Origin: an uncultured Desulfobacteraceae bacterium
GTDB taxonomy: Bacteria > Desulfobacterota > Desulfobacteria > Desulfobacterales > Desulfatirhabdiaceae
Length of the DNA stretch: 64,000 nucleotides
Direction of reading: 5' to 3'
NCBI GenBank assembly: GCA_903953895.1
Contig: CAJBLH010000246.1
Span: 1-64,000 of the forward strand
Under the pieces are notes generated by a model. The model saw only the letters and a program-made list of their open reading frames with translations, searched no databases and was not told the origin of the DNA. Every line of letters begins with the position of its first letter. Within the stretch, counting starts at the first letter, position 1. Of this stretch, positions 40,948 through 60,993 are shown one piece after another. The position numbers and the translations under genes were made by a program.

Positions 40948-40992
40948 CCGCAGCCGCTTTCGATTCCGTATTTGGCAAAAATAAGTCGAACG

Positions 40993-41877: not shown

Positions 41878-41952
41878 CAATCCTCTCTCGGTCTTGCCTT
41901 CATAAGCCTCTCTCGACAATGGCATCCGGTTTCTCAGTTATTTTCGGATCAA

Positions 41953-44900
41953 TTAGCGTAACCCTTCGCCATCGGGTTTGACCGGCTGCCGGGAAGCGCC
42001 GCTTACAGCCTCATCCAATACTTTTCTGACCATATCGGCCAGATCGCCTATGGCGACGGGTTTCATGAGAAAGCCTTTGATACCCATGGTTCTGGCACGC
42101 TGCTCATCGTTTTCAGTGCTGAACCCCGTACAGAGGATGATGGGAATCTCCGGCCTGATCGACAGCAGCTCGCCGGCCAGTTGATCTCCGGTCATGTTCG
42201 GCATGCCTCTGTCGCTGATCACCAGATCGAAACGATCGGGATCGGCTCTGAAAGCATTCAGTGCATCTATGCTGCTGGTACGGGCAGTGATCCGATACCC
42301 AAGCCTTTCGAGCGCCATTTGTTCCAAGTGGATGATCGGTTCTTCATCATCGACCAGCAGAATGCTTTCGCTGCCGCTCGGATGCTTGTCGATGGCAACG
42401 GGTTTTATGTCTCCGGTGTCATCGATAAGGGGCAGATACACATGAAAGGTGGTTCCTTTGCCGATTTCGCTGTAAACCCGGATATCCCCGCCATATTGCT
42501 TGATGATGCCGTGTACTACGGAAAGCCCCAGCCCCGTTCCCTTTCCCTGTTCCTTGGTGGTGAAGTAGGGTTCGAATATTCTATGGATCAGTGCCGGATC
42601 GATTCCGGTTCCGGTGTCGGATACGGTGATGCATCCATATCTGCCGGAAGGGATGGATTGAAAAGTCAACGCCTCTTTTTCATCAAAAGACATTGTGGTC
42701 GTCTCTTTCAGCTCGACAAGGATCGTTCCGCTGTTTTTCTCAACGGCATGATAGGCGTTGGTGATCAGGTTCATCATGATCTGATGAATCTGCGTCGGGT
42801 CTGCTAAGACCATGCCGCAATCCGCATTGATATGGCTGGTAATTTCGATCTTTCTGGGTATGGTGGCTTGTGCGAGTTTCAGCGCCTCTTTCAAAATGGG
42901 CTGAATCCGGATGGGCAGTTTTTGAGGGTTGGACTGGCGGCTGAAAGCCAGTATCTGTTTAACCAGATCGCCGCCACGCTTTGCAGATTTATGAATCTGT
43001 GCAATACCGGCACGCATGGGGCTATCGGGTGGAATGTCATCGAGCAGCATCTCCGACAGTCCGCTGATCGGAAACAGGATATTGTTCAGATCATGGGCGA
43101 TGCCGCCGGCAAGCGATCCGATGGCCTCCATTTTCTGGGCCTGCCGGAGCTGGGCTTCCAACCTGATTTTTCCTTCCTCAGCCAGTTTGCGTTCGGTGAT
43201 ATCCTGAATCATGGCCAGAAAATGATCCAGCCAGCCGTCACTCCGACGCACCGCGCGGACTGAGATTTCGGTAAAAATAACGGACCCATCCTTATGGATG
43301 AACCGTTTCTCGATCCGGTAGGCATCAATCTCCCCATTTACCACCCGGTCGAATTGGTACACATCCGCCGCCAAATCATCAGGGTGAGTCAATTCCTGCC
43401 ATGTCATTTCGAACAGTTCTTTGCGTGAATACCCCAACATGCTGCACAGGCAGTCATTGCATTCGACCCATCCTTTTTCCGGAGAGGTAATAGCCATACC
43501 GATCAACCCAAGATCGAAATAGCCGCGAAAACGGGCCTCATTCTCCCGTAACTTATCCACCATGCGTTTGTGCTCGGTCATGTCGGTGAAAAGAGCGTGA
43601 GAGCCGGCGAAAAGGCCGGTTGCATCCGTGATTGCAGTCGCGGACACCTGGGTCCAGACTTCCCGGCCGTCCTTGCAGCGGAATCGTCTTTCATAGGTAC
43701 CGCCGTGTCCCTGTTTACGTTTTTGCATTTTTGTCTGGTGATCGATCATATCCTCATCAAACATGAACGATGCAACAGGTTTGCCGATCATTTCTTCTGT
43801 CGGGTAACCCAGCATTTCTGTCATCCGCCGATTGACGAAAGTGGTCCGGTAATTCGCATCCATGGCCCAGATTCCCTCATTGGCCGTTTCAACGAAACGC
43901 TTGTATTTCTCCTGGCTTTCCCGTAGCGATTCCTCTGATTTTTTAAGCGCATTTCCGGCGTTTCGTATGCGAACAATGGACAGGCACAATATGGCGATGA
44001 TCGTCAATAAAAAAACGGTAACGATAACTCCCGGAATCAATAAGACGCGGTGCCGTTGAAAAAAAGAGATGGGCTGGTTGAACAGCATGCTGTTTTCCGG
44101 AAGGTTTTTCAGGGATATATTGAATCGGACAAGTTGTTGATAATCGAATACCGGGCGGGATCGGCTGTTTTCAACCGCGTATACGGCCGTATCCTGTCGG
44201 GATAAAATCCGCAATGCAATCTCTGCCGCCTGCCTGCCGTGTTCCCTGCCTTCAAGCAGCATCCCTCCGATGATGCCATGGCCCATGCGTGTTTCATGCA
44301 TGGCATAGACTGGCGCCGGGCTGGCGTTTGAAATCAGATGGGTACTTTCTTCACGGGTCAGCGTTCTGCCCGCTTTGTCTGTAACATAGGTCAGCAACAG
44401 AACCAGCGCATCTGCAGGCAGCGTACGCAATTGCATAACCAGTTCATCGACGGTACCCTCCGGCGTGTAATGAATCCGTATCTTGCCCTGAAATTGATCC
44501 GCCACGGACGCCATGTCTTTTTGAACCGCAATGCCGCTTGATGTATAGTCGTGAACAACCAGTACAGACCGGGTTCCAGGGTGGAGCGTCAATGCCAGCT
44601 CGAGGGTGCCAGCAATGTCTTGAACTTCCGCAACGCCGGCGATAAGTTCCTGTTCCCGGATCATTTCTGGGGAATAGCCATTGATGCCGGCAAAAACGAC
44701 GGGAACGCCGGGAAAGAGCTCCTGTCTGCACCCGATGGTCATATCCAGGGCCGGGTTATCCAGAACGAAAACGAGATTGAACCGCCTTTCCCGGTATTTG
44801 TTTTTCAGATACCGCTGGATGAACAGGAGATGATCCGGCCCGGGAAACCGTTTGGTGTCCAGATGCTCCATGGAGGGAACTATGAAAGGATACACCTTCT

Positions 44901-45069
44901 TGAATGAGGAGATGATTCCGGCAAGCTCATTATCCGACCAATCCTCGCCCTGGTGGTACGAATTCAGGATCAGAATATCCGGCGGGTGTTCAGCTTCCGT
45001 AATGCTCACGCTCAACAACATCCAGATCATGGCCAGAATCCCTATCAAGATGTTTTTCGGAATATCCAT
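41953..45069 (-). CDS. Hybrid histidine kinase with periplasmic binding domain
   Basis: I start at the ATG at 45069 (AGGA seven bases before), giving 1038 residues. The order is: membrane segment (~6-27), a periplasmic ABC-substrate-binding-like domain (~30-325), second membrane segment (~345-370), two PAS domains (~390-640), kinase core with SLAGGIAHDLNNILFP, ATPase (VSDTGTGIDP, GKGTGLGLSVV), and a C-terminal receiver with phospho-acceptor Asp in DLVISDRGMPNMTG. The internal receiver suggests a phosphorelay, although no HPt gene is near. It overlaps the acetyltransferase gene by 25 bases. Confidence 0.92.
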   Translation of the reverse strand: MDIPKNILIGILAMIWMLLSVSITEAEHPPDILILNSYHQGEDWSDNELAGIISSFKKVYPFIVPSMEHLDTKRFPGPDHLLFIQRYLKNKYRERRFNLVFVLDNPALDMTIGCRQELFPGVPVVFAGINGYSPEMIREQELIAGVAEVQDIAGTLELALTLHPGTRSVLVVHDYTSSGIAVQKDMASVADQFQGKIRIHYTPEGTVDELVMQLRTLPADALVLLLTYVTDKAGRTLTREESTHLISNASPAPVYAMHETRMGHGIIGGMLLEGREHGRQAAEIALRILSRQDTAVYAVENSRSRPVFDYQQLVRFNISLKNLPENSMLFNQPISFFQRHRVLLIPGVIVTVFLLTIIAILCLSIVRIRNAGNALKKSEESLRESQEKYKRFVETANEGIWAMDANYRTTFVNRRMTEMLGYPTEEMIGKPVASFMFDEDMIDHQTKMQKRKQGHGGTYERRFRCKDGREVWTQVSATAITDATGLFAGSHALFTDMTEHKRMVDKLRENEARFRGYFDLGLIGMAITSPEKGWVECNDCLCSMLGYSRKELFEMTWQELTHPDDLAADVYQFDRVVNGEIDAYRIEKRFIHKDGSVIFTEISVRAVRRSDGWLDHFLAMIQDITERKLAEEGKIRLEAQLRQAQKMEAIGSLAGGIAHDLNNILFPISGLSEMLLDDIPPDSPMRAGIAQIHKSAKRGGDLVKQILAFSRQSNPQKLPIRIQPILKEALKLAQATIPRKIEITSHINADCGMVLADPTQIHQIMMNLITNAYHAVEKNSGTILVELKETTTMSFDEKEALTFQSIPSGRYGCITVSDTGTGIDPALIHRIFEPYFTTKEQGKGTGLGLSVVHGIIKQYGGDIRVYSEIGKGTTFHVYLPLIDDTGDIKPVAIDKHPSGSESILLVDDEEPIIHLEQMALERLGYRITARTSSIDALNAFRADPDRFDLVISDRGMPNMTGDQLAGELLSIRPEIPIILCTGFSTENDEQRARTMGIKGFLMKPVAIGDLADMVRKVLDEAVSGASRQPVKPDGEGLR

Positions 45070-45353
45070 GCGCCATCCTGATTGTTGCAGAATCCCATCG
45101 TCTCCCAGAATCCAATGGCAGTAGGCCGGACACGATCGGCAACAACCACCTGAAAATGATGTTTGCAGTAGTTTACAAAATCTCTGCCATACCCATTGCC
45201 TTCCCATTCAGGGTATATGTTGATCGAACAGATGGTGATCGTATCGTTTTCAATTTTGCAACGGGCTTTTCCAATCCGTTCCTCGCCATTGGAAAAGTCT
45301 GCCCAGTCATACTCCGAATGCTGCTTGTCTCTTGGCACAAACTCAATTTTCAT
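45045..45353 (-). CDS. GNAT family N-acetyltransferase
   Basis: This is a 102-residue protein with the GNAT core: strand and acetyl-CoA site SINIYPEWEGNGYGRDFVNY (V-x-P-x-x-x-x-x-G-x-G) and the end TAIGFWETMGF. It is short, covering little beyond the catalytic fold, as in small protein- or amine-acetylating GNATs. It lies 20 bp downstream of the deacetylase gene and overlaps the hybrid kinase start, so all three are translated from one mRNA. The pairing resembles AcuA with AcuC, which add and remove an acetyl group on a lysine of acetyl-CoA synthetase. Confidence 0.82.
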   Translation of the reverse strand: MKIEFVPRDKQHSEYDWADFSNGEERIGKARCKIENDTITICSINIYPEWEGNGYGRDFVNYCKHHFQVVVADRVRPTAIGFWETMGFCNNQDGAWIFRKTS

Positions 45354-45373
45354 GTTTCCACACGCGCCCTTTT

Positions 45374-46135
45374 CTATCGAAAGCCTCCGCAGAACGACAG
45401 CACGTTCCTGCCGAGATCCGGCAGATAATAGCCTCCCTCGAGAATGGCGAACCTGCGACCGTTAGCCGCCCGTTCGGCGAATTTCTTCATGAGGGCGCCG
45501 ATCACATAAAAGTCGAAAGTCGATAATTTCCTGCCCACATCCTTTTCGTATGAATCGAAACCCGCACACACCCCGACAATGTCAACAGATGAAATGTCCT
45601 TGATCGCATCGTCGATTTCTTCGATATACAATTTGCCGTTTTCCGCATAGGGATTAAGGATTCTGCACGCTTTCCAGTCGGAAAGTACGGCCTTGGCGCC
45701 ATCCCCGGTGTGGGCGTCGAAATCCAGGATAAAAGCCGATTGGATCAGTTTTCTTTGCTTTAATTTCAGCAGCGCTACTGCCATGTTGCAGAAAACACAG
45801 TATCCCCAGGCGGACTCGCGGTAGGCGTGGTGCCCGGGGGGCCTCAAACAGGCAAAGGCCGGGTTTCCGCCCATGCCGATATCAGCGGCCAGAATCGCGG
45901 CTCCGGCAGCCAGCATGGCCATGTGGTATTTTTTGATGTCTGATTTTACCGAATCCATATATGCAGGCGTATGTGCAAGTCGTACATCGGCTTCACCGGC
46001 CGTTTCGGGACGCACGATCTCAAAGCCGGGTTCGTTGCAGGCAAGGTTCATGATGGATTCCATCCGGCCGGCTGCGGCAGCCCCGTCATCGGCATAGTCT
46101 GATTCATAAAATTTTTCGTGAAAGACAATTTTCAT
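45374..46135 (-). CDS. Histone-deacetylase superfamily amidohydrolase (AcuC/APAH-like)
   Basis: The 253-residue protein has AGGA before its ATG. It has the active-site RPPGHHAY (His-His charge relay), the zinc ligands in DFDAHTGDG and AGFDSYE, and EGGYY with the transition-state tyrosine. The second His of the usual DxDxHHGxG is Thr, while the ligand residues are kept. It is shorter than typical HDACs (about 300-350). Substrates of this superfamily include acetyl-lysine and acetyl-polyamines. It is the first gene of a minus-strand cluster with a GNAT acetyltransferase next, so the two may write and erase one modification. Confidence 0.85.
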   Translation of the reverse strand: MKIVFHEKFYESDYADDGAAAAGRMESIMNLACNEPGFEIVRPETAGEADVRLAHTPAYMDSVKSDIKKYHMAMLAAGAAILAADIGMGGNPAFACLRPPGHHAYRESAWGYCVFCNMAVALLKLKQRKLIQSAFILDFDAHTGDGAKAVLSDWKACRILNPYAENGKLYIEEIDDAIKDISSVDIVGVCAGFDSYEKDVGRKLSTFDFYVIGALMKKFAERAANGRRFAILEGGYYLPDLGRNVLSFCGGFR

Positions 46136-46171
46136 GGCGATCCTGTAACATGACGCTGCAAGCAGCCCACC

Positions 46172-46276
46172 TATAGACTTTCAGAAAAATAATTTCGCGT
46201 CGTTATCGGTCGGAGATATACGACAGTATAATCTCCTCCCTGCTGCCTTGCGAAATGAATTTTCTGAAAGTCTATA
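46172..46276. mobile_element. MITE-like element, copy 1 (105 bp)
   Basis: It begins TATAGACTTTCAGAAAA and ends TTTTCTGAAAGTCTATA, imperfect inverted repeats that extend for about 27 bp into ATTTCGC. TA dinucleotides at both ends fit a TA target-site duplication as in IS630/Tc1-mariner elements. It encodes no protein. It differs from copy 2 at only three of 105 positions. It lies between the deacetylase gene and the next minus-strand kinase. Confidence 0.8.
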
Positions 46277-46381
46277 TCCAACAAACAGTCGATGGATATC
46301 CTTGATGAGGCAATGACTTCCGCTGCTTCTTTTTTGAAAATACCATTGGTACAAGGTGTGTACAAGCAGAAAGACCATCTC

Positions 46382-48844
46382 CTAAATCCCATCATCCGCA
46401 TTTGCCAGTACGCGGTCGATCGTTTCATGCAGCCCCTTGAGCTGATAAGGTTTTCCCAGGAAGGCATCGGGACGTTCGGAATGCTCCTCCGCCATCACCA
46501 GAGCCTCGTCGTAGCCGCTCGACAGAATGACCGGAATTTTCGGTGATATCTTGCGAAGCGCAGCCAGCGTTGCCCAACCGTCCATCCGTGGCATCGTCAA
46601 ATCGGAAAGAACACAGCGAATCTCATGCTGATGTTGCTGAAACACCGCCACCGCCTCAACGCCGTCCTTTGCTTCAAGCACGGAAAATCCCAGGTGAATC
46701 AGCATTGTCTTGATCATGTGGCGCACCAGCGGGTCATCTTCGACCACCAGCACCGTGCCGGTTTCTTCCATTTCGGGAACCGATTCGGTTTTTTTCAAAG
46801 AAACGGGAGCGGCTTCGGCTGAGACAGGCAGAAAAACCCGGAAGATACTTCCCCGACCCGGGTGACTCTCGACCGTAATCCCCCCGCCTTGCGCACCGAC
46901 CAGCCCCAGCACGACCGACAGCCCCAGGCCCCGTCCGGTGAATTTCGTGGTGAAAAACGGATCGAATACCTTCTCGATTTCCCCGCTTTCAATGCCGCAT
47001 CCCGTATCCGCCACTTCCAGACAGGCATAGACGCTTTCTTTCGGCTGCCAGTCCACGGGGAAGCGATTTGTGTTGGGGATATTCTCCAGAGCAACCGTTT
47101 TGACCCTCAGGTCGATGGTTCCCGGATTTTCACCGGCAGCTTCGAAGGCATTGGCGACCAGATTGGCCAGGATTTTCTGGATTTGGCCGACATTTGTACG
47201 GATGAACGGGCCAGTGGCAGGCAGATCGGCATGAAACAAGATTTGTTTGGGAAGTGACGCCTGAAGCAGAGGAAGACTCTGGCGACAAATATCCGACAGA
47301 TCCAGCGGTTCCTGCTTTCCCGGTGTTTGCCCCAGATAGGTCAGCATCAGGCTGCTGATCTGCGCCACCTTGTCGGCTGCTTTCATGGCTTCGGCCATGG
47401 ACCTGAATGTATCCGAATCTTGAGACATATCGTCCATGGCCATTTCAAGATTTCCCATAATTACATAGAGCTGGTTGTTGAAATGGTGTGCGATAGCCCC
47501 TGCCATCCGCCCCAGACTCTCGGCCTTTTTCAACTGCTGGAGCTTCAACTCCAGATCGAGGCGGGTCTGTTCAGCCTGCTTGCGTTCGGAAATATCCCGT
47601 GCGGCGGCAAATACACCGATCACCTGACCATTTGTATTTCGATAAACCGAGGCATTGTAGAGTACAGGGATTTCACTGCCATCTCGGCATCTGATATTCA
47701 ATTCGTAATTATGGATATGGCCTTCCTGAAATACATGCCGATATCCGGCTCTGGCACGCTCCGGGTCAGTGAAATAGTTCGCAAAATCTGTTCCGATAAG
47801 CTCTTCACGACGGCAGCCGGTGGCTACCTCTGCCGCCAAATTGACATCGGTGATCTTTCCGTCGGAACCGATGGTTACCAGCGGATCCGGGCTGGCTTCG
47901 ATCAGGCTGCGATTGTAGTGGTTCGCTGACAGGAGTGTTTGCTCTGTCTGTTTGCGGTCAGTAATGTCCTGAATTTGAAAGATGAAGTAAGATGGTTCAT
48001 TGTTAGAGTCACGAACCAAAAAACAATTCTGTTGGATACAGATTAATCGGCCCTGTGCACGCCGACAGCGCTTCTGTATCTGGCAAGTGGCGATTGTTCC
48101 TGCCAGCAGTTGACGCTGATTGTCGATATCCGATGCAAGATCGCCCGGGTCGGAAATATCTTGAATGGTTTTGGAAAGTAATTCATCTTCAGTATAACCA
48201 AGTATGTTGCAGAGGGCCGTATTGACTTTCAGGATGCGACCATTGATTCCTACCAACGCATTTCCTATGGGCGACAGATCGAAGGCGCATCGAATCTGCG
48301 CCTGGCTCTCGGCCAGTTGAGCGGTTCGCCGCTGAATGCGTAATTCCAGCTCGGCATTCAGCCGTTCCAACGTCTGTTCGGCATGGTTACGCTCGGCGAT
48401 TTCCTTCAGAAGTCGTTCGTTTTGCCGTTCTATATTCACTTGCAGACGGCTGATGGTCAGATGTGTTTTGACTCTTGCCAGCACTTCTTCCGCATGAAAC
48501 GGCTTGCTGATGTAATCGACCGCACCGATTTCAAAGCCTTTTTTCTTCGAATGGACATCCTCTAATGCACTGATGAAAATGATGGGAACGGACCTTGTGT
48601 CGTCATTCGATTTCAGCACCCGACACACCTCAAAACCATCCATCCCCGGCATCATGATATCCAGCAGGATAATATCCGGCAGCTTTGCATTGACACTGCG
48701 CAGCGCCAATTCGCCATCACCGGCGGAACGAACATTGTAGCCAGCCCTGCTGAGTATCTCGTTCAGCAATTGAAGGTTGGCCAACGTGTCTTCGACAACA
48801 AGGACTTCACAGCCGGCGATCGAATCGGATTCACAGGTATTCAT
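46382..48844 (-). CDS. Hybrid histidine kinase (REC-PAS-PAS-HK-REC)
   Basis: The start is the ATG at 48844, sharing one base with the previous stop (TGATG); length 820 residues, soluble. An N-terminal receiver (~10-130, phospho-Asp in PDIILLDIMMPGMDG), a coiled coil (~135-175), two PAS domains (~180-400), a kinase core with AGAIAHHFNNQ, an ATPase (VADTGCGIE, GRGLGLSVVLGL) and a C-terminal receiver (VLSDLTMPRMD). It is a multistep relay component. The one-base overlap with the fragment of another kinase tail suggests it was once coupled to a larger gene upstream. Confidence 0.92.
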   Translation of the reverse strand: MNTCESDSIAGCEVLVVEDTLANLQLLNEILSRAGYNVRSAGDGELALRSVNAKLPDIILLDIMMPGMDGFEVCRVLKSNDDTRSVPIIFISALEDVHSKKKGFEIGAVDYISKPFHAEEVLARVKTHLTISRLQVNIERQNERLLKEIAERNHAEQTLERLNAELELRIQRRTAQLAESQAQIRCAFDLSPIGNALVGINGRILKVNTALCNILGYTEDELLSKTIQDISDPGDLASDIDNQRQLLAGTIATCQIQKRCRRAQGRLICIQQNCFLVRDSNNEPSYFIFQIQDITDRKQTEQTLLSANHYNRSLIEASPDPLVTIGSDGKITDVNLAAEVATGCRREELIGTDFANYFTDPERARAGYRHVFQEGHIHNYELNIRCRDGSEIPVLYNASVYRNTNGQVIGVFAAARDISERKQAEQTRLDLELKLQQLKKAESLGRMAGAIAHHFNNQLYVIMGNLEMAMDDMSQDSDTFRSMAEAMKAADKVAQISSLMLTYLGQTPGKQEPLDLSDICRQSLPLLQASLPKQILFHADLPATGPFIRTNVGQIQKILANLVANAFEAAGENPGTIDLRVKTVALENIPNTNRFPVDWQPKESVYACLEVADTGCGIESGEIEKVFDPFFTTKFTGRGLGLSVVLGLVGAQGGGITVESHPGRGSIFRVFLPVSAEAAPVSLKKTESVPEMEETGTVLVVEDDPLVRHMIKTMLIHLGFSVLEAKDGVEAVAVFQQHQHEIRCVLSDLTMPRMDGWATLAALRKISPKIPVILSSGYDEALVMAEEHSERPDAFLGKPYQLKGLHETIDRVLANADDGI

Positions 48845-49173
48845 CAAGCCTCCTTTATCGTAACCTGATCCAGAATAGTCAACAGCTCGCGGTACTGGAA
48901 TTGTACCACCATATGGTGCAGGAGTTCGGCATGTTTTTCGTCAATCTCCCTGATCCGGTTCACCACTTCAAGGCAAATAGCGCGATCCAGAAGTTCGACG
49001 GCACTGCGAAGTTTTCGAATCAAGTCATTCGGAAGACACTGCAAATCCGATGCCAGCAATGCAACCGTTTCTCCCGCATCTGCGGCGCTGGCTTGATCAT
49101 GCCGGAATCTAACACCGATATGCCGGGATAGCGCGTCGAAAATATCGTTTTCCTGAAAATTTACAGTGACTAT
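48844..49173 (-). pseudogene. C-terminal tail of a hybrid histidine kinase
   Basis: From a stop just above 49173 to the stop at 48844, one frame is open and reads like the end of a hybrid sensor kinase: DIFDALSRHIGV, LPNDLIRKLRSAVELLD, VNRIREIDEKHAEL, QFQYRELLTILDQ. This helical tail is commonly found after the last receiver domain in such proteins. The upstream kinase domains are absent. A TTG at 49059 could start a 71-residue product, but a truncated gene is more likely. Its stop overlaps the next kinase start. Confidence 0.65.
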
Positions 49174-49397: not shown

Positions 49398-49562
49398 ATG
49401 AAATCCCGTATCATCATCGACTCACCCGGCATCGACCGGATACTCACCCGCATGACACATGAAATTCTCGAAGTACACAAGGGCACGGAAAAACTGACGC
49501 TTATGGGGATACAAACCCGTGGTGTAAACATTTTTGTATTCCCAAATGCAACTTTTTCGTGA
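49398..49562 (+). pseudogene. pyrR: Truncated pyrR (pyrimidine regulator/uracil phosphoribosyltransferase)
   Basis: 54 residues remain. The N-terminal part matches the start of PyrR (IDRILTRMTHEILEVHKG, LTLMGIQTRGV), then similarity is lost after about residue 43 and a stop follows. Intact PyrR is about 180 residues with a PRPP-binding loop, which is missing here. Debris of a kinase gene and of the MITE lies next to it, suggesting a rearrangement. The superoxide dismutase gene starts 40 bp further on. Confidence 0.7.
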
Positions 49563-49602
49563 TCAATGTATTTTCATGGTAATAACAGAAAAGGAGAATG
49601 CG

Positions 49603-50298
49603 ATGGATCGAAGAAATTTTCTCAAACTGTCATTCGGTTTGGGTGTCTTGTCTATACTCGACATACCCGGCAGTTTGTCAGTTCTGCATGCAGCGGATAC
49701 CGGATGGTCATCGAATACCCAAGCTTTGCCATATGCCAAAGACGCTCTCGAACCCTATATGTCTGCACGCACTTTCGAATTCCATTATGGCAAACACTAC
49801 CAGACATACATCGACAATACCCGAAAACTGATTTCCGGAACGGAATTCGCCACCTTGCCACTAAAAGATATCATCCTGAAATCCTATGGGAAAACGGCTC
49901 ATACAGCTATTTTCAACAATGCCGCCCAATCTTTCAATCACGAGTTCTTTTGGAGCAGTATGCGGCCCGGTGGAGGAGGCAAACCCCAGGGCCGGATTGG
50001 ACATGCAATCGAGAAATCATTCGGCAGCTATGCTCAGTTTGAAAAGGAATTTATCGAAGCCGCCATGACCCAGTTCGGAAGCGGATGGGCCTGGCTGGTT
50101 CAAGATAAATCAAACCTGAAAGTAGTCAAAACAGCCAATGCCGACACCCCATTGACACAAGGGTGGAAGCCACTTTTCACGCTGGATGTTTGGGAACATG
50201 CCTATTACATCGACCATCAGAACCGCCGAGGCGACTATATCCGGTCCTTTCTGGACCGTCTGGTCAACTGGGATTTCGCCGAAAGCAATCTTGTGTGA
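49603..50298 (+). CDS. Exported Fe/Mn-type superoxide dismutase
   Basis: Start at ATG 49603 (AAAGGAGA upstream), 231 residues. The N-terminus MDRRNFLKLSFGLGVL has a twin-arginine motif and a hydrophobic stretch, so the protein is likely exported folded and metal-loaded through Tat. The four metal ligands are seen: His in EFHYGKHYQ, His in FNHEFFW, and Asp and His in DVWEHAYYID. The Gln in NNAAQSFNH and the GSGWAWLV segment favour iron over manganese. It would protect the periplasm from superoxide during oxygen exposure. It may share a transcript with the Cache protein gene 69 bp downstream. Confidence 0.92.
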   Translation: MDRRNFLKLSFGLGVLSILDIPGSLSVLHAADTGWSSNTQALPYAKDALEPYMSARTFEFHYGKHYQTYIDNTRKLISGTEFATLPLKDIILKSYGKTAHTAIFNNAAQSFNHEFFWSSMRPGGGGKPQGRIGHAIEKSFGSYAQFEKEFIEAAMTQFGSGWAWLVQDKSNLKVVKTANADTPLTQGWKPLFTLDVWEHAYYIDHQNRRGDYIRSFLDRLVNWDFAESNLV

Positions 50299-50367
50299 GT
50301 CATGACCGTTTATTGAATACTTCTGCCTCCTTTGGAGAGGGGAGAAAGTAAAAAAGGAAGGCACATC

Positions 50368-51576
50368 ATGCAGAAATTAATATCCGTTATGCTGTTTCTA
50401 TGTTTTGTATCGGTATCACCGACCGCAGCCGCTTCCGATGATCCGCCGGTACTGACGGAAGTCCAACAGAAAATACGCGCGGAATTCAGTAGAATTGACG
50501 CCGCCATGCAGGATGCAGCCGGAAAACTCGGTGCATCGGGCCTGACCGGAGACGCTGCCCGCGCATCGCTTGCGGAATTGTGCGGAAAATTCGCCTTTGC
50601 CATCGACTGTACCGCTGTTGACACCAAGGGGAAGATGGTCACGATAGAACCTTCTTCCTACAGTCAATTCGAGGGAACAGACATCAGCGCACAGAAACAG
50701 GTTAAATCGGTCATAAAAAAGCATAAACCGGTGATGAGTTCCGTTTTTAAAGCCATCGAGGGCTTTCCCGCCGTTGATGTGGAATATCCGATTTTTAGCC
50801 CCCAGGGGAAATATATCGGTTCCGTCAGCCTGTTTTTTAAACCCGAAACACTTTTCGCACAGCTCCTGCCCCCGTTGCTGAAAGGGTTCCCGGTGGACAT
50901 ATGGGCAATGGAGAAAGGCGGCCGAATTATCTACGATGTCGATGTTTCCGAAATTGGTCAGAATCTCTTTACCGCGCCGGCTTACCAGCCCTTTACCGAG
51001 TTGCTGAAAATAGGACGTCGCATTGCAGCCAAGCCGGAAGGCCGCGGCAGCTATCAATACAAAATCCACGGCGAGAATATTGTGGGCGAAAAGAATGCCT
51101 ACTGGAAAAGTGTAGCGCTTTATGGAACCGAGTGGCGCATTGTGGGCGTGCATGTCCGCAAAGAGGCGTCGGGCAAAAAATCGAATCAGGATTCTGTTTC
51201 GGCCAATCCGGAAGAGATGCTTGCGGCCCTGGCAACTGATGGCAAACTGATCCGCGCCCTGTCGCATGAAGACAAAAAAAAGACGATGAAACATTTCAAG
51301 GCCTTTTATCATGCAACGCCAGGGATATACGCCATCGAATGGATTGATAAAAACGGCGTCAACCGTTTCGGCTATCCGACCGGAAGCAGTCTTGTCGATT
51401 ACGATTACCATCAACTGAGAGAAACAGGGGATCAGGAGATTTTGGATCTGTTAACCAGCCGGAAGAAGGGGAAAATGGAATTGCCTCTGACGGAAGGGGG
51501 AATCGGTGTTTTCAATTTCGTGCCGGTGCTGGATGGTGAAAATTACCTTGGATTGATCTATATCATCAGGGAATAA
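50368..51576 (+). CDS. Secreted tandem Cache-domain protein
   Basis: Start at ATG 50368 (AAGGAAGG upstream), 402 residues. A Sec signal peptide (~1-22, VSVSPTAAA) is followed by a helix, a Cache-type sensor domain (~60-165: VDTKGKMVTIEP, FSPQGKYIGSVSLFF), a second similar domain (~175-270, AMEKGGRIIYDVDVSEIGQN), and a C-terminal domain (~285-402, IEWIDKNGVNRFGYPTGSS). There is no membrane segment after the signal and no output domain. It is probably a free periplasmic ligand-binding or scavenging protein, perhaps working with the receptor or permease encoded nearby. Confidence 0.75.
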   Translation: MQKLISVMLFLCFVSVSPTAAASDDPPVLTEVQQKIRAEFSRIDAAMQDAAGKLGASGLTGDAARASLAELCGKFAFAIDCTAVDTKGKMVTIEPSSYSQFEGTDISAQKQVKSVIKKHKPVMSSVFKAIEGFPAVDVEYPIFSPQGKYIGSVSLFFKPETLFAQLLPPLLKGFPVDIWAMEKGGRIIYDVDVSEIGQNLFTAPAYQPFTELLKIGRRIAAKPEGRGSYQYKIHGENIVGEKNAYWKSVALYGTEWRIVGVHVRKEASGKKSNQDSVSANPEEMLAALATDGKLIRALSHEDKKKTMKHFKAFYHATPGIYAIEWIDKNGVNRFGYPTGSSLVDYDYHQLRETGDQEILDLLTSRKKGKMELPLTEGGIGVFNFVPVLDGENYLGLIYIIRE

Positions 51577-51707: not shown

Positions 51708-53801
51708 ATGGATGAAATAAAGAATGACGCGCCTCAGTTAAAAGCGGATATCGGCCTCATCAGCGCATTGTCCATTGTGGTAGGCATGGTCCTTGGCGCA
51801 GGGGCATTCATGAAACCGGCGGCGGTCATGGCCGCATCGAGCGATTCCACATGGGCGTTCGCCGCATGGGTTGTCGGCGCCATCTTCAGCATGGCCGGCG
51901 GTCTGACACTGTGCGAGTTGGGCGTCCTGTTTCCGCGCACGGGCGGCGTCTATGTCTTTCTCGAAGAAACATACGGCGCCAGGATAGCCTATCTGTATGG
52001 ATGGATGTTGACCTTCATTTATGGGCCCGCCACAATTGGCGCCCTGTCCGGCTATTTCAGTTCCGTCTTCTGCCTGCTCTTCGGTGTTCCAGAACACTAT
52101 GTCGCTGTTATTGGGCTGGCGGCGATCTCTTTTGTGGTTTTCGTGAACAGCGTCGGTGTCAAGCAGGCAGGATACCTGCAGGTCGTGGCCACATTTTGTA
52201 AGCTGATTCCTCTTCTCCTGCTGGTCGTTTTCGGCCTGTGGAAAGGCAGCGGCCATGTTTTGAACATCGCCACCCACACCACTGCGGTCACTTCATTTTC
52301 ACTGGCCGTCATTGCCACACTTTTTGCCTATGACGGCTGGGCGCAAGTGGCATCCGTCGCCGGTGAAATGAAAAACCCCGGCAAGATTCTTCCCCAGGCC
52401 ATCATCGGGGGGCTTGTTTTTCTGTCCGCCGTTTACATTCTGATCAACATTGCCATCATCAAGGTGCTTTCTCCGGCCCAGATGGTTTCTCTGGGACATG
52501 ATGCATCCTCGATCGCCGCACAGAAACTTTTCGGGCTCTATGGCGGCAATCTGGTTTCGGTCGGCATCATGATCTCGATCATCGGCGGCCTGAATGGTTA
52601 CATCATGACCCTGTCGCGCATTGTATTCACCATGGCCGAGCGCAATCAACTGCCTGTCTCCGGGGTCTGGAAAAAGATTGAGACAGACAGCAATACCCCC
52701 GTCAATGCGGCCCTGCTCCTGGCGGTTCTGGCGTTTATCTATCTGCAGGTTCTGGATGCCGACCGTCTGTCGGACATCGCCATGTTTGCCATCTGGATAT
52801 TTTATCTGCTCAGTTTCATCGCTGTTTTTATCGCTCGTAAACAAATGCCTCAGGCACTGCGCAGTTATAAAGTGCCCTTGTATCCGTTGACGCCGTTGAT
52901 TGCAGTCGGCGGCGCCCTCTACATCATATACGGCATGTGCATAAGCCACCCTTTATACGCCGTTGTTTCCGTAGGGCTCACACTGGCTGGAATTCCGGTA
53001 TTGTATTTGATAACGCACAGGCTGCCAAGGTTCCACGGATTTGCCTTCAGCAAAAAATACGTTGTTCTGTCGGCGGCTTTCTTTGCCTGCGGCGCACTCC
53101 TTCTCTTCCCGCAGATAAAAGATACCCGGCCGGTGCTGCGGGTGGCTGTTGAAACATCCAATCCGCCCATCGCCTTCGAGGATGAAACCGGCAAACCGGC
53201 CGGGCTTGACATCGATATCATCGAGGCGGTCGCCCATGAGATGGGATATCGGGTTTCTTTTCGCGCGACAGCTTTCAGCTTTCTCTTTTCGGCATTGGAA
53301 AACGATCTGGCCGATGTCGCCATCAGCGAATTGACGATTACGGAGGAACGAAAACGAATTGTCGATTTCACGAAAAGCTATCATCAAGGTACCCTGGCGC
53401 TGCTGGTCCGCACGGACAGCACGGCCGGAAATCTGGATGATCTGAGAGGAAAAGCGATCGGAGTCAAGAGTCGTTCCACCGGAGATTTTTATATGGAGAA
53501 ACACCCAGGATACACCCTCCGAAGGCTCAGCATTTTTCCGGATCTGGTGCAACTCTTCAATGAAGGCGTGATCGATGGCATTGTCTTCGATAAGCCGGTC
53601 ATTGAACAGTGGCTATCCCGGAATACTGTTTCCGGTCGTATGATCGATCTCGAAGGTGCGGAATCATATGGCGTCGCCTATCAGAAAACGAATCCCGATC
53701 TGGGTCGGAAACTTAACAAGGCCATCGATTCGATGGCGCAAAGCGGGAAGCTGGACGCTATTGTAAAAAAATGGCTGGTAGCCCCTTCAGATGGAAGATG
53801 A
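51708..53801 (+). CDS. Amino-acid permease (APC) fused to a periplasmic solute-binding domain
   Basis: The 697-residue product has an APC-superfamily permease (~1-440) with about twelve membrane helices (GMVLGAGAFMKPAAVMAA in helix 1, SFSLAVIATLFAYDGWAQV in helix 6), an extra helix (~450-468), then a family-3 solute-binding domain (~475-697: LRVAVETSNPPIAFEDE, AGLDIDIIEAVAHEMGY, DVAISELTITEERKRIVDF, LRGKAIGVKSRSTGDFY). Thirteen helices place the binding domain in the periplasm. APC carriers normally act without a binding protein, so this is unusual. There is no frame break at the junction. Ligand prediction (an amino acid) is inference. Confidence 0.88.
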   Translation: MDEIKNDAPQLKADIGLISALSIVVGMVLGAGAFMKPAAVMAASSDSTWAFAAWVVGAIFSMAGGLTLCELGVLFPRTGGVYVFLEETYGARIAYLYGWMLTFIYGPATIGALSGYFSSVFCLLFGVPEHYVAVIGLAAISFVVFVNSVGVKQAGYLQVVATFCKLIPLLLLVVFGLWKGSGHVLNIATHTTAVTSFSLAVIATLFAYDGWAQVASVAGEMKNPGKILPQAIIGGLVFLSAVYILINIAIIKVLSPAQMVSLGHDASSIAAQKLFGLYGGNLVSVGIMISIIGGLNGYIMTLSRIVFTMAERNQLPVSGVWKKIETDSNTPVNAALLLAVLAFIYLQVLDADRLSDIAMFAIWIFYLLSFIAVFIARKQMPQALRSYKVPLYPLTPLIAVGGALYIIYGMCISHPLYAVVSVGLTLAGIPVLYLITHRLPRFHGFAFSKKYVVLSAAFFACGALLLFPQIKDTRPVLRVAVETSNPPIAFEDETGKPAGLDIDIIEAVAHEMGYRVSFRATAFSFLFSALENDLADVAISELTITEERKRIVDFTKSYHQGTLALLVRTDSTAGNLDDLRGKAIGVKSRSTGDFYMEKHPGYTLRRLSIFPDLVQLFNEGVIDGIVFDKPVIEQWLSRNTVSGRMIDLEGAESYGVAYQKTNPDLGRKLNKAIDSMAQSGKLDAIVKKWLVAPSDGR

Positions 53802-53992: not shown

Positions 53993-55888
53993 TTAGAACT
54001 CCTTGAAATCATTCTCATCCATGGGGATGATATCGTCGGGATGAACTTGTCTGGCCCTGTTGCGTGTCGGGATTCTTCCCTTTACAGGTCTTTTTGATAC
54101 GGCCAGCGCGTTTCGGGGCAATTGCCTTGTTTGTGCAGCGTTTTTCGGGCGTCTGGCAGTATGAAAATTGTCGGTTGGTACTACGGTATTTCCTCTGACC
54201 ATCGCAGACAGTTCATTGACGAATGACTTCATCTCTTCTGCCTGCGCATTCAATTCTTCAGATGCAGCAGCCGATTCCTCGGCGGTTGCCGCATTCTGCT
54301 GGGTGACCTTATCCATTTCAATTACCGCGATGTTCACCTGTTCGATCCCTTGAGACTGCTCAGAAGATGCAATCGCGATTTCACCTACCAACTCGCCGAC
54401 TTTGCGGGTGCTGCCGGCCACTTCCCTGAAGGCGTCATTGGTTGTTTTTACCAGCGTGGTTCCATCCGTGATCTTTTTTACAGTTCCTTCAATCAAAACC
54501 GCCGTATTTTTGGCTGCATCCGCGGCGCGCATGGCCAGATTCCGTACCTCGTCGGCCACAACCGCAAATCCGGCGCCGGCTTCCCCGGCTCTGGCGGCCT
54601 CCACAGCGGCATTTAATGCCAGAAGATTGGTCTGAAAAGCAATCTCATCGATGGTCTTGATGATTCTTGAGGTTTCTTCACTGGCTTTCGAGATTTCCTG
54701 CATGGAGGTAGTCAGTTGGCTCATGGATGCATCGGCCTTATTCACCACTTCCCTGGCCTCTTTCATGAGGGCGTTTGCCTGGGAGGCGTTTTCGGCGTTC
54801 TGCTTGGTCATGGAGGATATTTCCTCCAGCGACGCCGATGTCTCTTCTACGGATGCCGCCTGCTGAGAAGAGCCTTCAGCCAGAGTCTGACTGGCCAATG
54901 AAAGTTGGCCCGACGCATCCGAAACCTGTTCGTGTGAGGCAGTGAGTCCGTGAATCGTCCGACTCAGGGTTTTGACAAGCTTGCGAACTTGAAAAAAGCT
55001 GATGACAACCATGACAAACCCTATGATCACAGTTACCATAAGGGTTGGCAGAATAGTGCTTTCCAACGTTTGCTCTATCAGATTGCGTTCTTTTCCGACA
55101 AAGAACATGCCGACAATCTTTCCGTCCATATCTTTCATGGGCCAGTAACAGGCATCATAATTTTTTCCCATGACGCTGTTGATATTCAGAAAAAAATCCC
55201 CTTTCTTAAGAACCGTTTCGATTACCTGGGGGTTATCCATTTTGGTGCCGACAGCCCGTTTTCCATCTTTTAAAATAGTGGTTGCAATACGCAGATCGCC
55301 TTGAAATATCGTACACTCCATGCCGTATTTACTTTTGATTTCATCAACAAAGGCTTCTGATGAAAGATCGAATCCCGCGGTCACGGTGCCGATCACCAGA
55401 TTTCCCTTTCGGATGGGACTCCCCGCCCGCAGGGAAAATTTGACCACTGTTCCTTCTTCGATATTTGTCGATGCTTGACCGGAAAGGGATTTTTTGACAT
55501 TGATCTGCGATAGAACACTGTCTCCGGTTTTATCCGAGTGTCCCCTTCCCAGTACGTTGCCGTCCTTGTCTGCAATGGTGAGAACCGAAACCTGGCGGGT
55601 CTTTACATACCCCTTGCTCATACCCTGAACAGCAGCCTTGTCTGCCAGCTCCACCGCCGAAACCAGATGCTGGTTTTCCGATAGAATAGCGGCGGTAATA
55701 ACGGCCTTATCCTTTAGATCGTTTACATGTCTTTGAACCAGCTCCATCATTTTTTGGGTCTCTAACCGACCCTGCATATTCAGGCCGCGATTCAGCATGA
55801 AATAGCTCGTTCCATAAACAACGCCTCCAACCAGTACGGCTGTAATGACAATCAAACTAATGATTTTTCCGAATAATGAAAATCTCAT
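53993..55888 (-). CDS. Methyl-accepting chemotaxis protein with Cache-type sensor
   Basis: The 631-residue receptor has AGGAGA before its ATG, a membrane segment (~10-32), a periplasmic Cache3-Cache2-like ligand domain (~35-275), a second segment (~280-305), a long coiled coil without an obvious canonical HAMP, and the signalling hairpin with the tip [21 protein letters not shown] (~400-420; first 20 residues [20 protein letters not shown]). Methylation helices flank it. The last residues, DENDFKEF, end in an acidic/aromatic tail that may tether adaptor enzymes. It lies back-to-back with the lactate operon, so lactate or another organic acid is a candidate signal. Confidence 0.92.
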
Positions 55889-56482: not shown

Positions 56483-58186
56483 ATGTTCACTTGGACGCAA
56501 GTTTATACACCGGTCTTTGGAAACGTGCTTCTGTCAGCATTGGTCGCATCGATACCCGTCATTCTACTGCTGGGGCTTCTTGGTTTTGCGCACTTGAAAG
56601 CGCATTGGTGTGCGATTGCAGGGCTTCTGTCTTCGCTTGCCATTGCCGTCTTCGTTTACGGAATGCCTGGAAAACTCGCCCTGGCCTCTGCCGGCTATGG
56701 GGCGGCCTACGGTCTTTTACCGATCGGGTGGATCATTCTGGGCGCAATCTTCGTGTATGACATCACCGTGAAAACAGGTGATTTCGAGGTGGTCAAACAT
56801 TCAATTTCCGGCATTTCGGATGACCGCCGTATCCAGCTCCTGCTGATCGGTTTCAGCTTCGGTGCTTTCATCGAGGGGGCTGCCGGTTTTGGTACGCCGG
56901 TGGCGATTTCCGGTGCCATGCTGATCGGCCTGGGGTTTCGCCCCTTAAAGGCTGCGATCCTGGCGCTTATCGGAAACACGGCGCCGGTGGCCTACGGCGC
57001 GCTGGGGATTCCGATCATCACACTTGCCAAGGTCACGGGGCTGGATGAAATGGCCCTCAGTCAGATGGTCGGAAGGCAGTTGCCGATATTCTCACTCATC
57101 GTTCCTTTCTGGCTGATCTGGGCCATGGCCGGCCGCAAGAAGATGATGGAAGTCTGGCCTGCCTGCCTGACATGCGGACTCAGCTTTGCCATCACGCAGT
57201 ACGTTGTCAGCAACTTCATCGGGCCATCTCTGGTGGATATCCTGGGTTCTGTGATTTCGATGGGTTCAACACTGGTTCTGCTGAAATTCTGGAAGCCCAA
57301 AACGAGCTGGCACTTCGATCATGAAACAAAGGAAGGGCGCCAGGCCGATGCCGATGCACGGCCGGATCAAACTGTCGGTCAGGTCGCCAGAGCCTGGATG
57401 CCGTGGGCCATGCTGTGCGTCTTTGTGTTCGCGTGGGGGTACCCGGCGTTCAAGACTTTTTTGAATGGCGGCGCCAAGGGAAGCGAAAATTTCCTGATGG
57501 GTGTATCCAGCGTCAGTTTCCCGATCCCATATCTCGATAAGGCTGTTATAAAGGTAGCCCCGGTTGTCGCCAAACAGACGGCCGAAGGGGCGGTTTATGT
57601 TTTCAACTGGCTGTCTGCCACCGGAACGAGTCTCATATTGGTGGGTGTCATCAGCGCTCTGCTTCTGGGGCTTTCGTTAGGCGAACTCGTCAATGTCTTT
57701 CTCGGTACGTTGAAACGCATCCGGATATCGCTTCTGACAATCACCGCCATGCTGGGGCTTGGCTTTACGACGCGTTACTCGGGCCTCGATGCAACCATGG
57801 GTCTGGCGTTTGCATCAACCGGATTTCTCTTTCCATTTTTTTCCCCCCTTCTGGGCTGGCTGGGTGTAGCGCTTACCGGCAGTGACACCTCATCGAACGT
57901 TCTCTTCGGGGGGCTTCAAAAAATCAGCGCCGAAGCGCTGGGTATCAATCCGATCCTTTCCTGCGCCGCCAACAGCAGCGGCGGGGTGATGGGCAAGATG
58001 ATCGATGCGCAAAGTATTGTTGTCGCAGGTGTGGCAACCGGCCAGCAGGGCCATGAAGGAGAGATTCTGCGGGGTGTTTTCTGGCACAGTATCGCACTGG
58101 CCTCACTGGTCGGTGTGGTGGTTTTCCTGCAGGCCTATGTATTCCCCTGGATGATTCCTGCAGTCGTGTCGGCAGTCGTCAAATGA
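56483..58186 (+). CDS. lctP: L-lactate permease
   Basis: The 567-residue membrane protein has GGGGAGG before its ATG and about thirteen to fourteen hydrophobic helices, with LctP-family segments such as [20 protein letters not shown] (~125-144), [18 protein letters not shown] and [14 protein letters not shown]. It imports lactate (or glycolate) with protons. It is first in a rightward operon: glcD starts 53 bp after its stop, then glcF and gntR. Sulfate reducers use lactate as a main electron donor, so this may be a primary carbon-uptake unit. Length and motifs are regular. Confidence 0.95.
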
Positions 58187-58200
58187 TATGTGATATGAAC

Positions 58201-58223
58201 AATGAATTTTCTGAAAGTCTATA
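58201..58223. mobile_element. MITE-like terminal remnant between lctP and glcD
   Basis: AATGAATTTTCTGAAAGTCTATA equals the right end of copies 1 and 2 (23 bases, shown here as ending in GAAAGTCTATA). The ribosome site of glcD (AAAGG) starts only two to three bases after it, so the remnant sits in the operon's leader spacing. Confidence 0.65.
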
Positions 58224-58239
58224 GAAAGGCGAAGAATTC

Positions 58240-59613
58240 ATGAACCCATCTTTCATCAAAGAATTGCAGGCCATTGTCGGCCAACAATATACTCTGTCCG
58301 ACCGGGAGTCGCTGGCAGTTTACGGTTATGACGCCACCCCGGAGCTGGAGAGCCGTCCGGGGGTCGTCCTGATGCCCGGATCATCCGATGAAATCGCCCG
58401 CATCATGCGCCTGTGTCATGGGGCCGGCATCAGCGTCACACCCCGTGGATCGGGCACAAATCTGTCAGGCGGCTCGATTGCTGGCAGTGAAGGTGTTGTG
58501 GTTCAGACCAGCCGGTTGAACCGGATCATCGAAGTGGACGAAGAAAACCTGACCGCCACAGTCGAACCGGGGGTGATCACCAGCGCCCTGCACCGCGAGG
58601 TGGAGGCAAGAGGCCTCTTCTATCCGCCTGATCCGGGCAGCATGAACATCTCCACTATGGGGGGCAATGTGGCCGAGAATTCGGGCGGTTTACGCGGACT
58701 GAAATATGGCGTCACAGCCAATTATGTCATGGGGCTGGAGACGATTCTTGCCGACGGAAGCCTGCTGCATACCGGGGGTAAGGTGGTGAAAGATGTCGCC
58801 GGATACTGCCTCAATCCCCTTCTGGTATCCTCAGAAGGCACCCTTGGATTTTTTACCGGCATCACCGTCAAGCTGATTCCCAAACCTCAGGTCAAGACCA
58901 CGATGCTGGCGCATTTTCCGGAGATGCGTCAGGCGGCCCTGACGGTTTCGGCCATCATTGCGGCCAAAGTGATCCCCGCCACCCTGGAATTCCTCGACAA
59001 GGTCACCATCAAATGCGTTGAAGACTATGCTCATGTCGGGCTGCCGCTGGATGTGGATGCTGTCCTGCTGATCGAGGTGGACGGCCACCCGGTTGTGGTG
59101 GCGGAAGAGGCCGCCGCTGTGGAGGCGATCTGCAGAAAACATGGATGTTCTTTCTTTCAGACAGCCAAAAACGCCGATGAAGCGCTCAATCTGGCCACTG
59201 CCCGGCGCACAGCACTTTCGGCTCTGGCGCGGTTGAAGCCGACCACCATTTTAGAGGACGCCACCGTACCGCGGAGCTGCATTGCCGCCATGCTGAAGGT
59301 CATTCAGGATTCCGCCAAAAAACACAATGTCACGATCGGTACATTCGGTCATGCTGGCGACGGCAATCTGCATCCCACCTGCCTTACCGACGAGCGGGAC
59401 AAAGATGAAATCGCCCGGGCCCACAAGGCTTTCGATGAGATATTCGATGCCGCCATATCCATGGGTGGCACCATCACCGGAGAGCATGGCGTGGGGATGG
59501 CCAAGAAGAAATACCTGCCAAGACTCGTTGGCGAATCGGGTATCCGGGTTATGCGGGGGATCAAGCAGGCATTCGATCCCAAAGGGATACTGAATCCGGG
59601 GAAAATTTTTTAA
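58240..59613 (+). CDS. glcD: FAD-dependent glycolate/D-lactate dehydrogenase subunit (GlcD)
   Basis: The 457-residue flavoprotein has the PCMH-type FAD domain (PRGSGTNLSGGSIAG, ~71-85; GGNVAENSGGLRGLKYG) and a C-terminal substrate domain with FGHAGDGNLHP and ITGEHGVGMAKKKYL. It oxidises a 2-hydroxy acid (glycolate or D-lactate) and passes electrons to the Fe-S subunit encoded next. Here the lactate permease context argues for lactate. A MITE end lies just before its ribosome site. It should act with GlcF in a membrane-associated complex. Confidence 0.92.
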   Translation: MNPSFIKELQAIVGQQYTLSDRESLAVYGYDATPELESRPGVVLMPGSSDEIARIMRLCHGAGISVTPRGSGTNLSGGSIAGSEGVVVQTSRLNRIIEVDEENLTATVEPGVITSALHREVEARGLFYPPDPGSMNISTMGGNVAENSGGLRGLKYGVTANYVMGLETILADGSLLHTGGKVVKDVAGYCLNPLLVSSEGTLGFFTGITVKLIPKPQVKTTMLAHFPEMRQAALTVSAIIAAKVIPATLEFLDKVTIKCVEDYAHVGLPLDVDAVLLIEVDGHPVVVAEEAAAVEAICRKHGCSFFQTAKNADEALNLATARRTALSALARLKPTTILEDATVPRSCIAAMLKVIQDSAKKHNVTIGTFGHAGDGNLHPTCLTDERDKDEIARAHKAFDEIFDAAISMGGTITGEHGVGMAKKKYLPRLVGESGIRVMRGIKQAFDPKGILNPGKIF

Positions 59614-59629
59614 GTTGATATCAAGAATG

Positions 59630-59658
59630 CGTTGACCGTCAAAGGTCAACGGTCAACG
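59630..59658 (+). repeat. Alternative hairpins between glcD and glcF
   Basis: GTTGACC (59631-59637) can pair with either of two direct copies of GGTCAAC (59644-59650 or 59651-59657), giving two mutually exclusive stems. It lies 8-19 bases before the glcF ribosome site, so it may influence expression of glcF relative to glcD. Confidence 0.45.
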
Positions 59659-59676
59659 TTTAATCCGAGGATTACC

Positions 59677-60915
59677 ATGGACTACGTCAAACTGATAAAC
59701 TGTATGCGCTGTGGAATGTGCCTTCCCGCCTGCCCCACGTATAAGGAGACATTTCTTGAAACCGCCTCTCCCCGCGGCAGAGTCGCGCTGGTGCGAAAAC
59801 TTCAGGAAGGCGAGCTGGATCAGTCGGCGCGCCTCCTGGAATATCTGTCGCTTTGCATCGACTGTCAGGCCTGCGCCTCGTCCTGTCCCTGCGGCGTCAA
59901 TGCCGGCGAGCTGGTGGCCGAGTTCACCTGCGAGCGCAAAGCAGAAGACAGGCTCAGCTTTATGGAAGATCTTGTTCTACGCAAATTGCTGCCCCACCCG
60001 GACCGGCTGGAAGCAGCCATTGTGCCGATGCGCCTGTATCAGCGTATCGGGCTGCAAAAGCTGGTCAGAACCCTTGGCATCCTCAAGATGTTTCCCAAGC
60101 CGCTGGATCGGATGGAAGGGCTGCTGACCGATCTGCCCGAAAGACCGCTGCGACAGGTGATACAGGCAGATATGCCGGCCAGGGGCGCTGTGCGCGGAAC
60201 GATCGGGTTTTTTCTGGGATGTGTCATGAGTTTGATTTTCAGCGATGCCAGTCGTGCCACGATCAAGCTGCTGACCTTGCTTGGCTACCGGGTGATCACC
60301 CCGAAAAACCAGGTCTGCTGTGGTGCGCCCAACATGCTGTCAGGCGATCTGGCCGGCTTGAAAGATGCAGCCCGCAAAAATGTGAACATTTTCGGGGGCT
60401 TCGATCTGGATTTTATCGTCACCGACTGCGGCGGATGCGGGGCCGAGCTGAAAAAATACAGCCACCATCTCAATGAACCATCGGTTGCCTCATTCAGCAA
60501 CAAGGTGCGGGATATTTCACAGGTTCTGACGATGCATGCCGATGAACTGAAAGCGATCCTTACCCCGCTGCCACTGAAAGTCACTTACCATGACCCCTGC
60601 CATATCGCGCATTGTCAGGGGATTCGCAAGCAGCCGCGTGAGCTGCTTAATCTTGTGCCTGGCCTGAAATATACAGAACTGGAAAACGCCGATGCCTGCT
60701 GCGGCGGTGGCGGCACCTACAATATCGAAAAGCCGCAGATGGCGGATCTGATCCTGCGGCGAAAACTCGATACCATCCGGGCCACCGGGGCGGAAGTATT
60801 GGTGACCGGCAATCCCGGATGTCTGCTGCAGCTTAAAAAAGGTCTGATGGACCATTTGCCGCAGGTCAAGATCATGCATCTAACCGAACTGCTGGCAAAG
60901 AGCATCGGTGTTTGA
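59677..60915 (+). CDS. glcF: Glycolate/lactate oxidase iron-sulfur subunit (GlcF)
   Basis: Start at ATG 59677 with GAGG seven bases upstream; 412 residues. Two 4Fe-4S ferredoxin motifs (CMRCGMCLPACP, CIDCQACASSCP) are followed by two CCG-type cysteine-rich domains (VCCGAPNM, DCGGCGAEL; HDPCHIAHCQG, ADACCGGGGTYN) of the heterodisulfide-reductase-like kind. It carries electrons from GlcD to the membrane electron carriers. It directly follows glcD in the operon. Confidence 0.93.
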   Translation: MDYVKLINCMRCGMCLPACPTYKETFLETASPRGRVALVRKLQEGELDQSARLLEYLSLCIDCQACASSCPCGVNAGELVAEFTCERKAEDRLSFMEDLVLRKLLPHPDRLEAAIVPMRLYQRIGLQKLVRTLGILKMFPKPLDRMEGLLTDLPERPLRQVIQADMPARGAVRGTIGFFLGCVMSLIFSDASRATIKLLTLLGYRVITPKNQVCCGAPNMLSGDLAGLKDAARKNVNIFGGFDLDFIVTDCGGCGAELKKYSHHLNEPSVASFSNKVRDISQVLTMHADELKAILTPLPLKVTYHDPCHIAHCQGIRKQPRELLNLVPGLKYTELENADACCGGGGTYNIEKPQMADLILRRKLDTIRATGAEVLVTGNPGCLLQLKKGLMDHLPQVKIMHLTELLAKSIGV

Positions 60916-60927
60916 CCATCGTTTCGG

Positions 60928-60954
60928 TTGCGGAGCCGTCAAAAACATTATAAT
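60928..60954 (+). promoter_or_regulatory. Possible internal promoter before gntR
   Basis: A perfect TATAAT (60949-60954) is preceded by a poor -35 (TTGCGG at 60928, 15 bp away). It would give gntR a separate transcript from lctP-glcDF. Confidence 0.4.
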
Positions 60955-60993
60955 AGAAGGGGAAAACCGTTAACCTTTTTTTGACTGGTGCCC

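Follow-up and report, generated by a model that had tools for sequence, protein, structure and literature searches.

The question raised by this locus is what a type of amino acid carrier that usually works alone does with a solute-binding domain in its own chain. Within the window (the whole stretch of DNA analysed, 64,000 nucleotides from an uncultured Desulfobacteraceae bacterium), one uninterrupted open frame on the plus strand spans positions 51708 to 53801 and encodes a 697 aa protein composed of a LAT-type APC carrier, a thirteenth helix and a family-3 solute-binding domain. An earlier note, made from the sequence, had described this frame as a 12-helix APC carrier with one extra helix and a complete family-3 domain, which is confirmed by the frame itself, the Pfam matches and the hydropathy profile. 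The carrier module (51708 to 53029, plus strand; residues about 1 to 441, 12 helices) matches AA_permease_2 at residues 15 to 411 (E 5.7e-53). Helix 13 (53061 to 53117, plus strand; residues about 452 to 470) was recognized by hydropathy. The amino-acid-binding domain (SBP_bac_3; 53136 to 53777, plus strand) was matched by Pfam at residues 477 to 690 (E 2.2e-34), covering Pfam positions 1 to 130 of 132, so that the two-lobed domain is complete.

Architecture and predicted structure

The hydrophobic segment at residues 452 to 470, C-terminal to the carrier module, is preceded by a loop (residues 437 to 451) with four lysine and arginine residues in total and no acidic residue. From this positive loop and the segment following it, 13 helices with a C-terminal domain in the periplasm are the natural reading, as the earlier note had argued from the helix count. 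A periplasmic binding domain, reached via a cytoplasmic loop and helix 13, fits both hydropathy and loop charge, the helix being modelled at low confidence. The match to TIGR01096, a curated model of binding proteins, starts at residue 454, corresponding to profile position 4. Helix 13 thus probably derives from the signal peptide of the binding domain, retained as an uncleaved anchor.

In the profile search, only APC-type amino acid transporter families matched the membrane part of the fusion, and neither DctM nor TctA nor GltS was among them. An ABC permease domain was likewise not matched in the protein, which has an APC permease instead. The external domain is an SBP_bac_3 domain and not an SLC3-type (amylase-like) domain. 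No signalling domain was found on the cytoplasmic side of the fusion, whose chain terminates with the binding domain.

Structure prediction, suggested as a check by the earlier note, recovered a LAT-like carrier and the fold of an amino-acid-binding protein. The AlphaFold2 model of the fusion was obtained from a 52-row alignment, from which plasmid-record rows were excluded and replaced by locus rows, and has a mean pLDDT of 80.7. A preceding six-row alignment had given an unusable model (pLDDT 37), and two larger alignments were discarded, since stand-alone binding proteins had aligned onto the carrier. The modelled carrier reached target TM-scores of up to 0.86 to 0.88 against BasC and other LAT structures (0.86 for BasC, at 41% identity), and many of its top structural matches come from LATs solved in complex with 4F2hc or rBAT. 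For the modelled binding domain, the target TM-score was 0.90 with AncQR, an ancestral Gln/Arg-binding protein. VIA-align scored the modelled fusion against LAT structures with Z values of 34 to 52; its match list covers the carrier only and is therefore uninformative on the binding domain. The helix and linker at residues 437 to 471 were poorly modelled (pLDDT mostly below 50), so the model gives no mutual arrangement of carrier and binding domain.

The carrier and the binding domain

Judged by its sequence, the carrier is a member of the LAT (SteT/BasC) type exchanger family with the key transport residues intact. Its best match in the PDB is BasC (6f2g, E 5.9e-98), and it is 43% identical to the SteT orthologue of Bacillus velezensis. 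The gene of the latter has a ring-cleaving dioxygenase gene on one side and a DUF47/phosphate-transporter pair on the other, surroundings which we take to be those of steT (ykbA) in B. subtilis, and residue 295 of its product is a lysine, as in SteT. In a tree of 49 carriers, the six fusion carriers group beside this orthologue (support 100/99). Of the 38 stand-alone carriers sampled from the phylum, 37 fall elsewhere, and the last (L004) is weakly placed on a very long branch.

K165, F206 and Y243 of the fusion align with K154, F199 and Y236 of BasC, and the helix-5 lysine (K165) and the helix-7 tyrosine (Y243) are invariant in all six fusions. The phenylalanine (F206, BasC F199) is the outer gate, while the lysine and the tyrosine are residues of the LAT transport cycle. 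Functional roles have been described for all three residues in BasC (PMC6472337, PMC8399266). At the position of the specificity lysine reported for SteT, K295 (PMC8399266), the fusion has Tyr298, as does BasC. Because this lysine is replaced, serine as the proposed substrate is deduced from the context described below and not from the pocket. The carrier should be transport-competent and selective for small neutral amino acids.

Among solved structures, the binding domain is closest to AncQR and to the domains of GlnPQ (6h30, 4kqp), and the best of these relatives bind glutamine or arginine. Another PDB match, 3h7m, is titled 'Sensor protein'. R548 is present in all six fusions and in 28 of 28 stand-alone relatives, D628 in all six fusions and in 24 of the 28; from what is known of HisJ and GlnBP, we take R548 to be at the position of the alpha-carboxylate and D628 at that of the alpha-ammonium group of the amino acid. 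All fusions carry E541 and R589, whereas the 28 stand-alone relatives have mostly Ser, Gly or Ala at the former position and Gly, Ala or Ser at the latter. As the usual small pocket residues are replaced by these two, the domain might bind another ligand or close ligand-free. A specialised, perhaps small, ligand is plausible, although its identity is not readable from the sequence.

Distribution and genomic context

Full-length relatives free of stop codons were found in two further genomes of the window's genus (G001, 88% identity; G006, 85%), in L013, from an uncultured member of the Desulfobacteraceae (88%), and in two genomes of Smithella type (G555, contig L014, 70%; G123, contig L015, 69 to 70%), with each genome and its contig counted once. 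A further member of the window's genus, G002, has the last 50 residues of the fusion at a contig edge, matching its C-terminus. The fusion or its end is thus present in seven genomes from two distant families of one phylum. Only two of 395 genomes drawn from the phylum encode it, and the architecture is rare and patchy. Looser searches of the phylum, in which the best candidates per genome were scored, gave no further fusion of a carrier with a binding protein: the carriers retrieved stood alone, in frames of at most about 550 aa, and the binding proteins were encoded separately. Beyond the phylum, 85,000 species genomes were sampled by a single pattern scan, sensitive to close relatives only. 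The viral contigs searched contained no relative of the fusion, and the plasmids searched held stand-alone carriers only, with no record at 80% coverage. A large set of described members with known function, which the earlier note had named as an argument against its reading, did not emerge: in the open literature searched as full text (5.39 million papers), nothing was found that describes an APC carrier with a fused solute-binding domain. Annotated but unstudied members of the architecture may exist elsewhere.

Pairwise dN/dS values amounted to about 0.06 to 0.12 for the carrier, 0.14 to 0.29 for the binding domain and 0.06 to 0.44 for the short joint, with dS near saturation in comparisons between the two families. 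By these ratios, all parts of the fusion are under purifying selection. The two Smithella copies (L014:4995-7094 and L015:291-2387) share 98% identity over the carrier but only 76% over the binding domain, a divergence that hints at a changing ligand preference or at relaxed constraint in the latter.

In every relative, the gene adjacent to the fusion encodes a one-piece L-serine dehydratase (L-serine ammonia-lyase), which matches TIGR00720 at 435 and 453 bits (cut-off 345). In both Smithella genomes, the ATG of the dehydratase gene overlaps the TGA stop of the fusion in a four-base ATGA. The dehydratase gene follows the fusion on the same strand in G006 and is convergent to it in G001, G002 and L013. 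The adjacency holds despite these differing orientations and despite differing further neighbours. The window's genome also encodes the dehydratase, but on another contig (C95) and not adjacent to the fusion. Among 51 Smithellaceae, the fusion and the dehydratase each occur in two genomes, which are the same pair. Within the window's family (eight genomes), both are present in G000, G001, G002 (fusion partial) and G006, and neither in G003, G004, G005 and G007. Across 108 genomes, the dehydratase was found in six of six with the fusion versus three of 102 without it (Fisher p 4e-8, kinship ignored); kinship makes the true figure for co-occurrence less extreme, the two families being separate cases. 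These patterns indicate that the fusion is inherited together with the L-serine dehydratase and usually beside it. In G040 (L146:82-2853), which belongs to the same order and lacks the fusion, the dehydratase gene is followed by one whose product is a permease of the kin of aromatic and serine/threonine transporters, so that the fusion may stand in for a dedicated substrate permease.

The neighbours in the window are of a different kind. The fusion gene is flanked by genes for a secreted Cache-type sensor protein (50332 to 51576, plus strand) and a methyl-accepting chemotaxis protein (53993 to 55888, minus strand). The earlier note had named both flanking proteins correctly, but a conserved neighbourhood of these genes with the fusion was not seen in the relatives. 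As they are absent beside the fusion there, both were rejected as partners and judged to lie outside the system. The product of 50332 to 51576 combines a sensor domain of the HK/GC/chemotaxis type with a Cache-like region and has no signalling domain of its own. A lactate-use cluster (56483 to 61719) is located beside the chemoreceptor gene and comprises an L-lactate permease, a FAD-linked oxidase, an iron-sulfur protein and a GntR/FCD regulator. On the other side, at 49534 to 50298, an iron/manganese superoxide dismutase is encoded, the N-terminus of which (DRRNFLKLSFGLGVL) resembles a twin-arginine export signal. The region from 38483 to 48847 is dense in response regulators and sensor kinases, two of the latter being hybrid PAS kinases, and within this group a histone-deacetylase-like protein is encoded at 45374 to 46135 (all read by eye from the translations).

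Proposed function and relation to known transporters

The fusion is probably a LAT carrier of the serine type (small neutral L-amino acids) with a tethered binding protein, feeding serine catabolism. The retained signal helix would hold the binding domain in the periplasm above the carrier, where the domain would catch scarce serine (or alanine, cysteine, threonine) and either raise the serine concentration at the outward-facing carrier or pass serine to it. Splitting of the imported serine into pyruvate and ammonia by the dehydratase would sustain the inward gradient. LATs are obligatory exchangers (PMC6472337), and net use of serine would therefore need a counter-substrate. If this property extends to the present carrier, alanine formed from that pyruvate would be a plausible one; alternatively, the binding domain might bias the carrier towards import.

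The earlier note had left two functions side by side, a high-affinity scavenging carrier and a transceptor, of which the former is favoured here by the intact LAT transport residues and the tie to serine dehydratase. A transceptor or self-regulated carrier is rather improbable; in it the domain, instead of delivering substrate, would detect amino acid outside the cell and either gate the LAT carrier or use it to transmit a signal. Family-3 binding domains act as sensor domains elsewhere (PDB match 3h7m), the domain evolves faster than the carrier, as seen in the Smithella copies, and the unusual E541 and R589 could indicate a different ligand. The chemoreceptor and the secreted Cache protein beside the window copy would suit such a role too, but sensory flanks are confined to the window, and the conserved partner is a catabolic enzyme rather than a regulator. 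Moreover, the protein stops after the binding domain and thus offers no signalling domain on the cytoplasmic side, while its carrier has kept the residues for transport.

It is unlikely that the helix and outer domain serve mainly to stabilise or target the carrier, as SLC3 heavy subunits do, with ligand binding being secondary; animal LATs do pair with a heavy subunit (PMC6472337), and the carrier here is a LAT. R548 and D628 are nevertheless invariant in the fusions, a constraint that would not be needed if the domain were purely structural. The heavy subunits of animal LATs cross the membrane once and carry a large domain on the outside, and the same in-to-out topology is predicted for helix 13 with its domain, but the bacterial LATs BasC and SteT function without a binding protein or partner.

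A chance or degenerate fusion, i.e. read-through of two neighbouring genes without joint function, is very improbable. The resemblance of helix 13 to a retained signal sequence is what an in-frame joining of a carrier gene with a binding-protein gene would leave behind; however, the frame is uninterrupted across 30% divergence and two families, dN/dS stays below 0.45 even in the joint, the fusion or its end recurs in seven genomes, and the dehydratase is linked to it. An assembly error joining two genes near 53110, a possibility raised in the earlier note, is practically excluded by the identical junction in independent assemblies of different organisms, three of which lie on named public contigs.

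The favoured reading, a serine-type carrier with a tethered binding protein, can be compared with several transporters already described. SteT (serine/threonine exchanger, Bacillus) and BasC (alanine-serine-cysteine exchanger) are carriers of the same type with the lysine and tyrosine of the LAT cycle, but stop after helix 12 and lack the binding domain. Heteromeric amino acid transporters (LAT with 4F2hc or rBAT) likewise add a single helix and a large domain on the outside to a LAT, in the same predicted orientation; their SLC3 protein is held by a disulfide, whereas the external part of the fusion belongs to the carrier's own chain and is a periplasmic binding protein. ABC importers of the GlnPQ type, whose binding domains are among the closest solved relatives and are also fused to a membrane protein, have an ATP-driven ABC permease, in contrast to the fusion, which has no ABC domain. 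TRAP and TTT transporters combine secondary transport with an extracytoplasmic binding protein, the role predicted for the domain in the fusion, but their membrane parts are unrelated to APC carriers and their binding proteins belong to other families.

Until TAXI-GltS was added in 2025 (PMC12344293), use of a soluble binding protein was known for only two classes of secondary transporter, TRAP and TTT; according to that study, TRAP transporters are elevator-type, and TTT and GltS are likely so. TAXI-GltS, including its rare single-chain fusions in Lachnospiraceae (PMC12344293), resembles the fusion in being a rare case of a usually solitary secondary carrier joined to a binding protein. Its translational coupling was taken as evidence of partnership, while the fusion is coupled to a catabolic gene instead. 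Both of its parts are unrelated to those of the fusion: a GltS carrier (proposed elevator) with N-terminal TAXI there, a carrier of LeuT fold followed by a family-3 domain at the C-terminus here. Since the carrier has the APC (LeuT-type) fold, it is a member of none of TRAP, TTT and TAXI-GltS, although it would operate as they do if the proposed function is right, and on its predicted features the fusion is a candidate for a new kind of binding-protein-using carrier.

The same study asks why other carriers have no binding proteins, considers that the elevator mechanism is possibly needed, and notes that further classes would permit a test (PMC12344293). A LeuT-fold carrier with a binding domain can serve as such a test, and the fusion would provide it as a single-chain candidate on a different kind of carrier, with a predicted substrate. 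It would also represent a bacterial parallel to animal LATs paired with an external subunit. If the proposed function is true, the coupling of a carrier to a binding protein would need no elevator mechanism.
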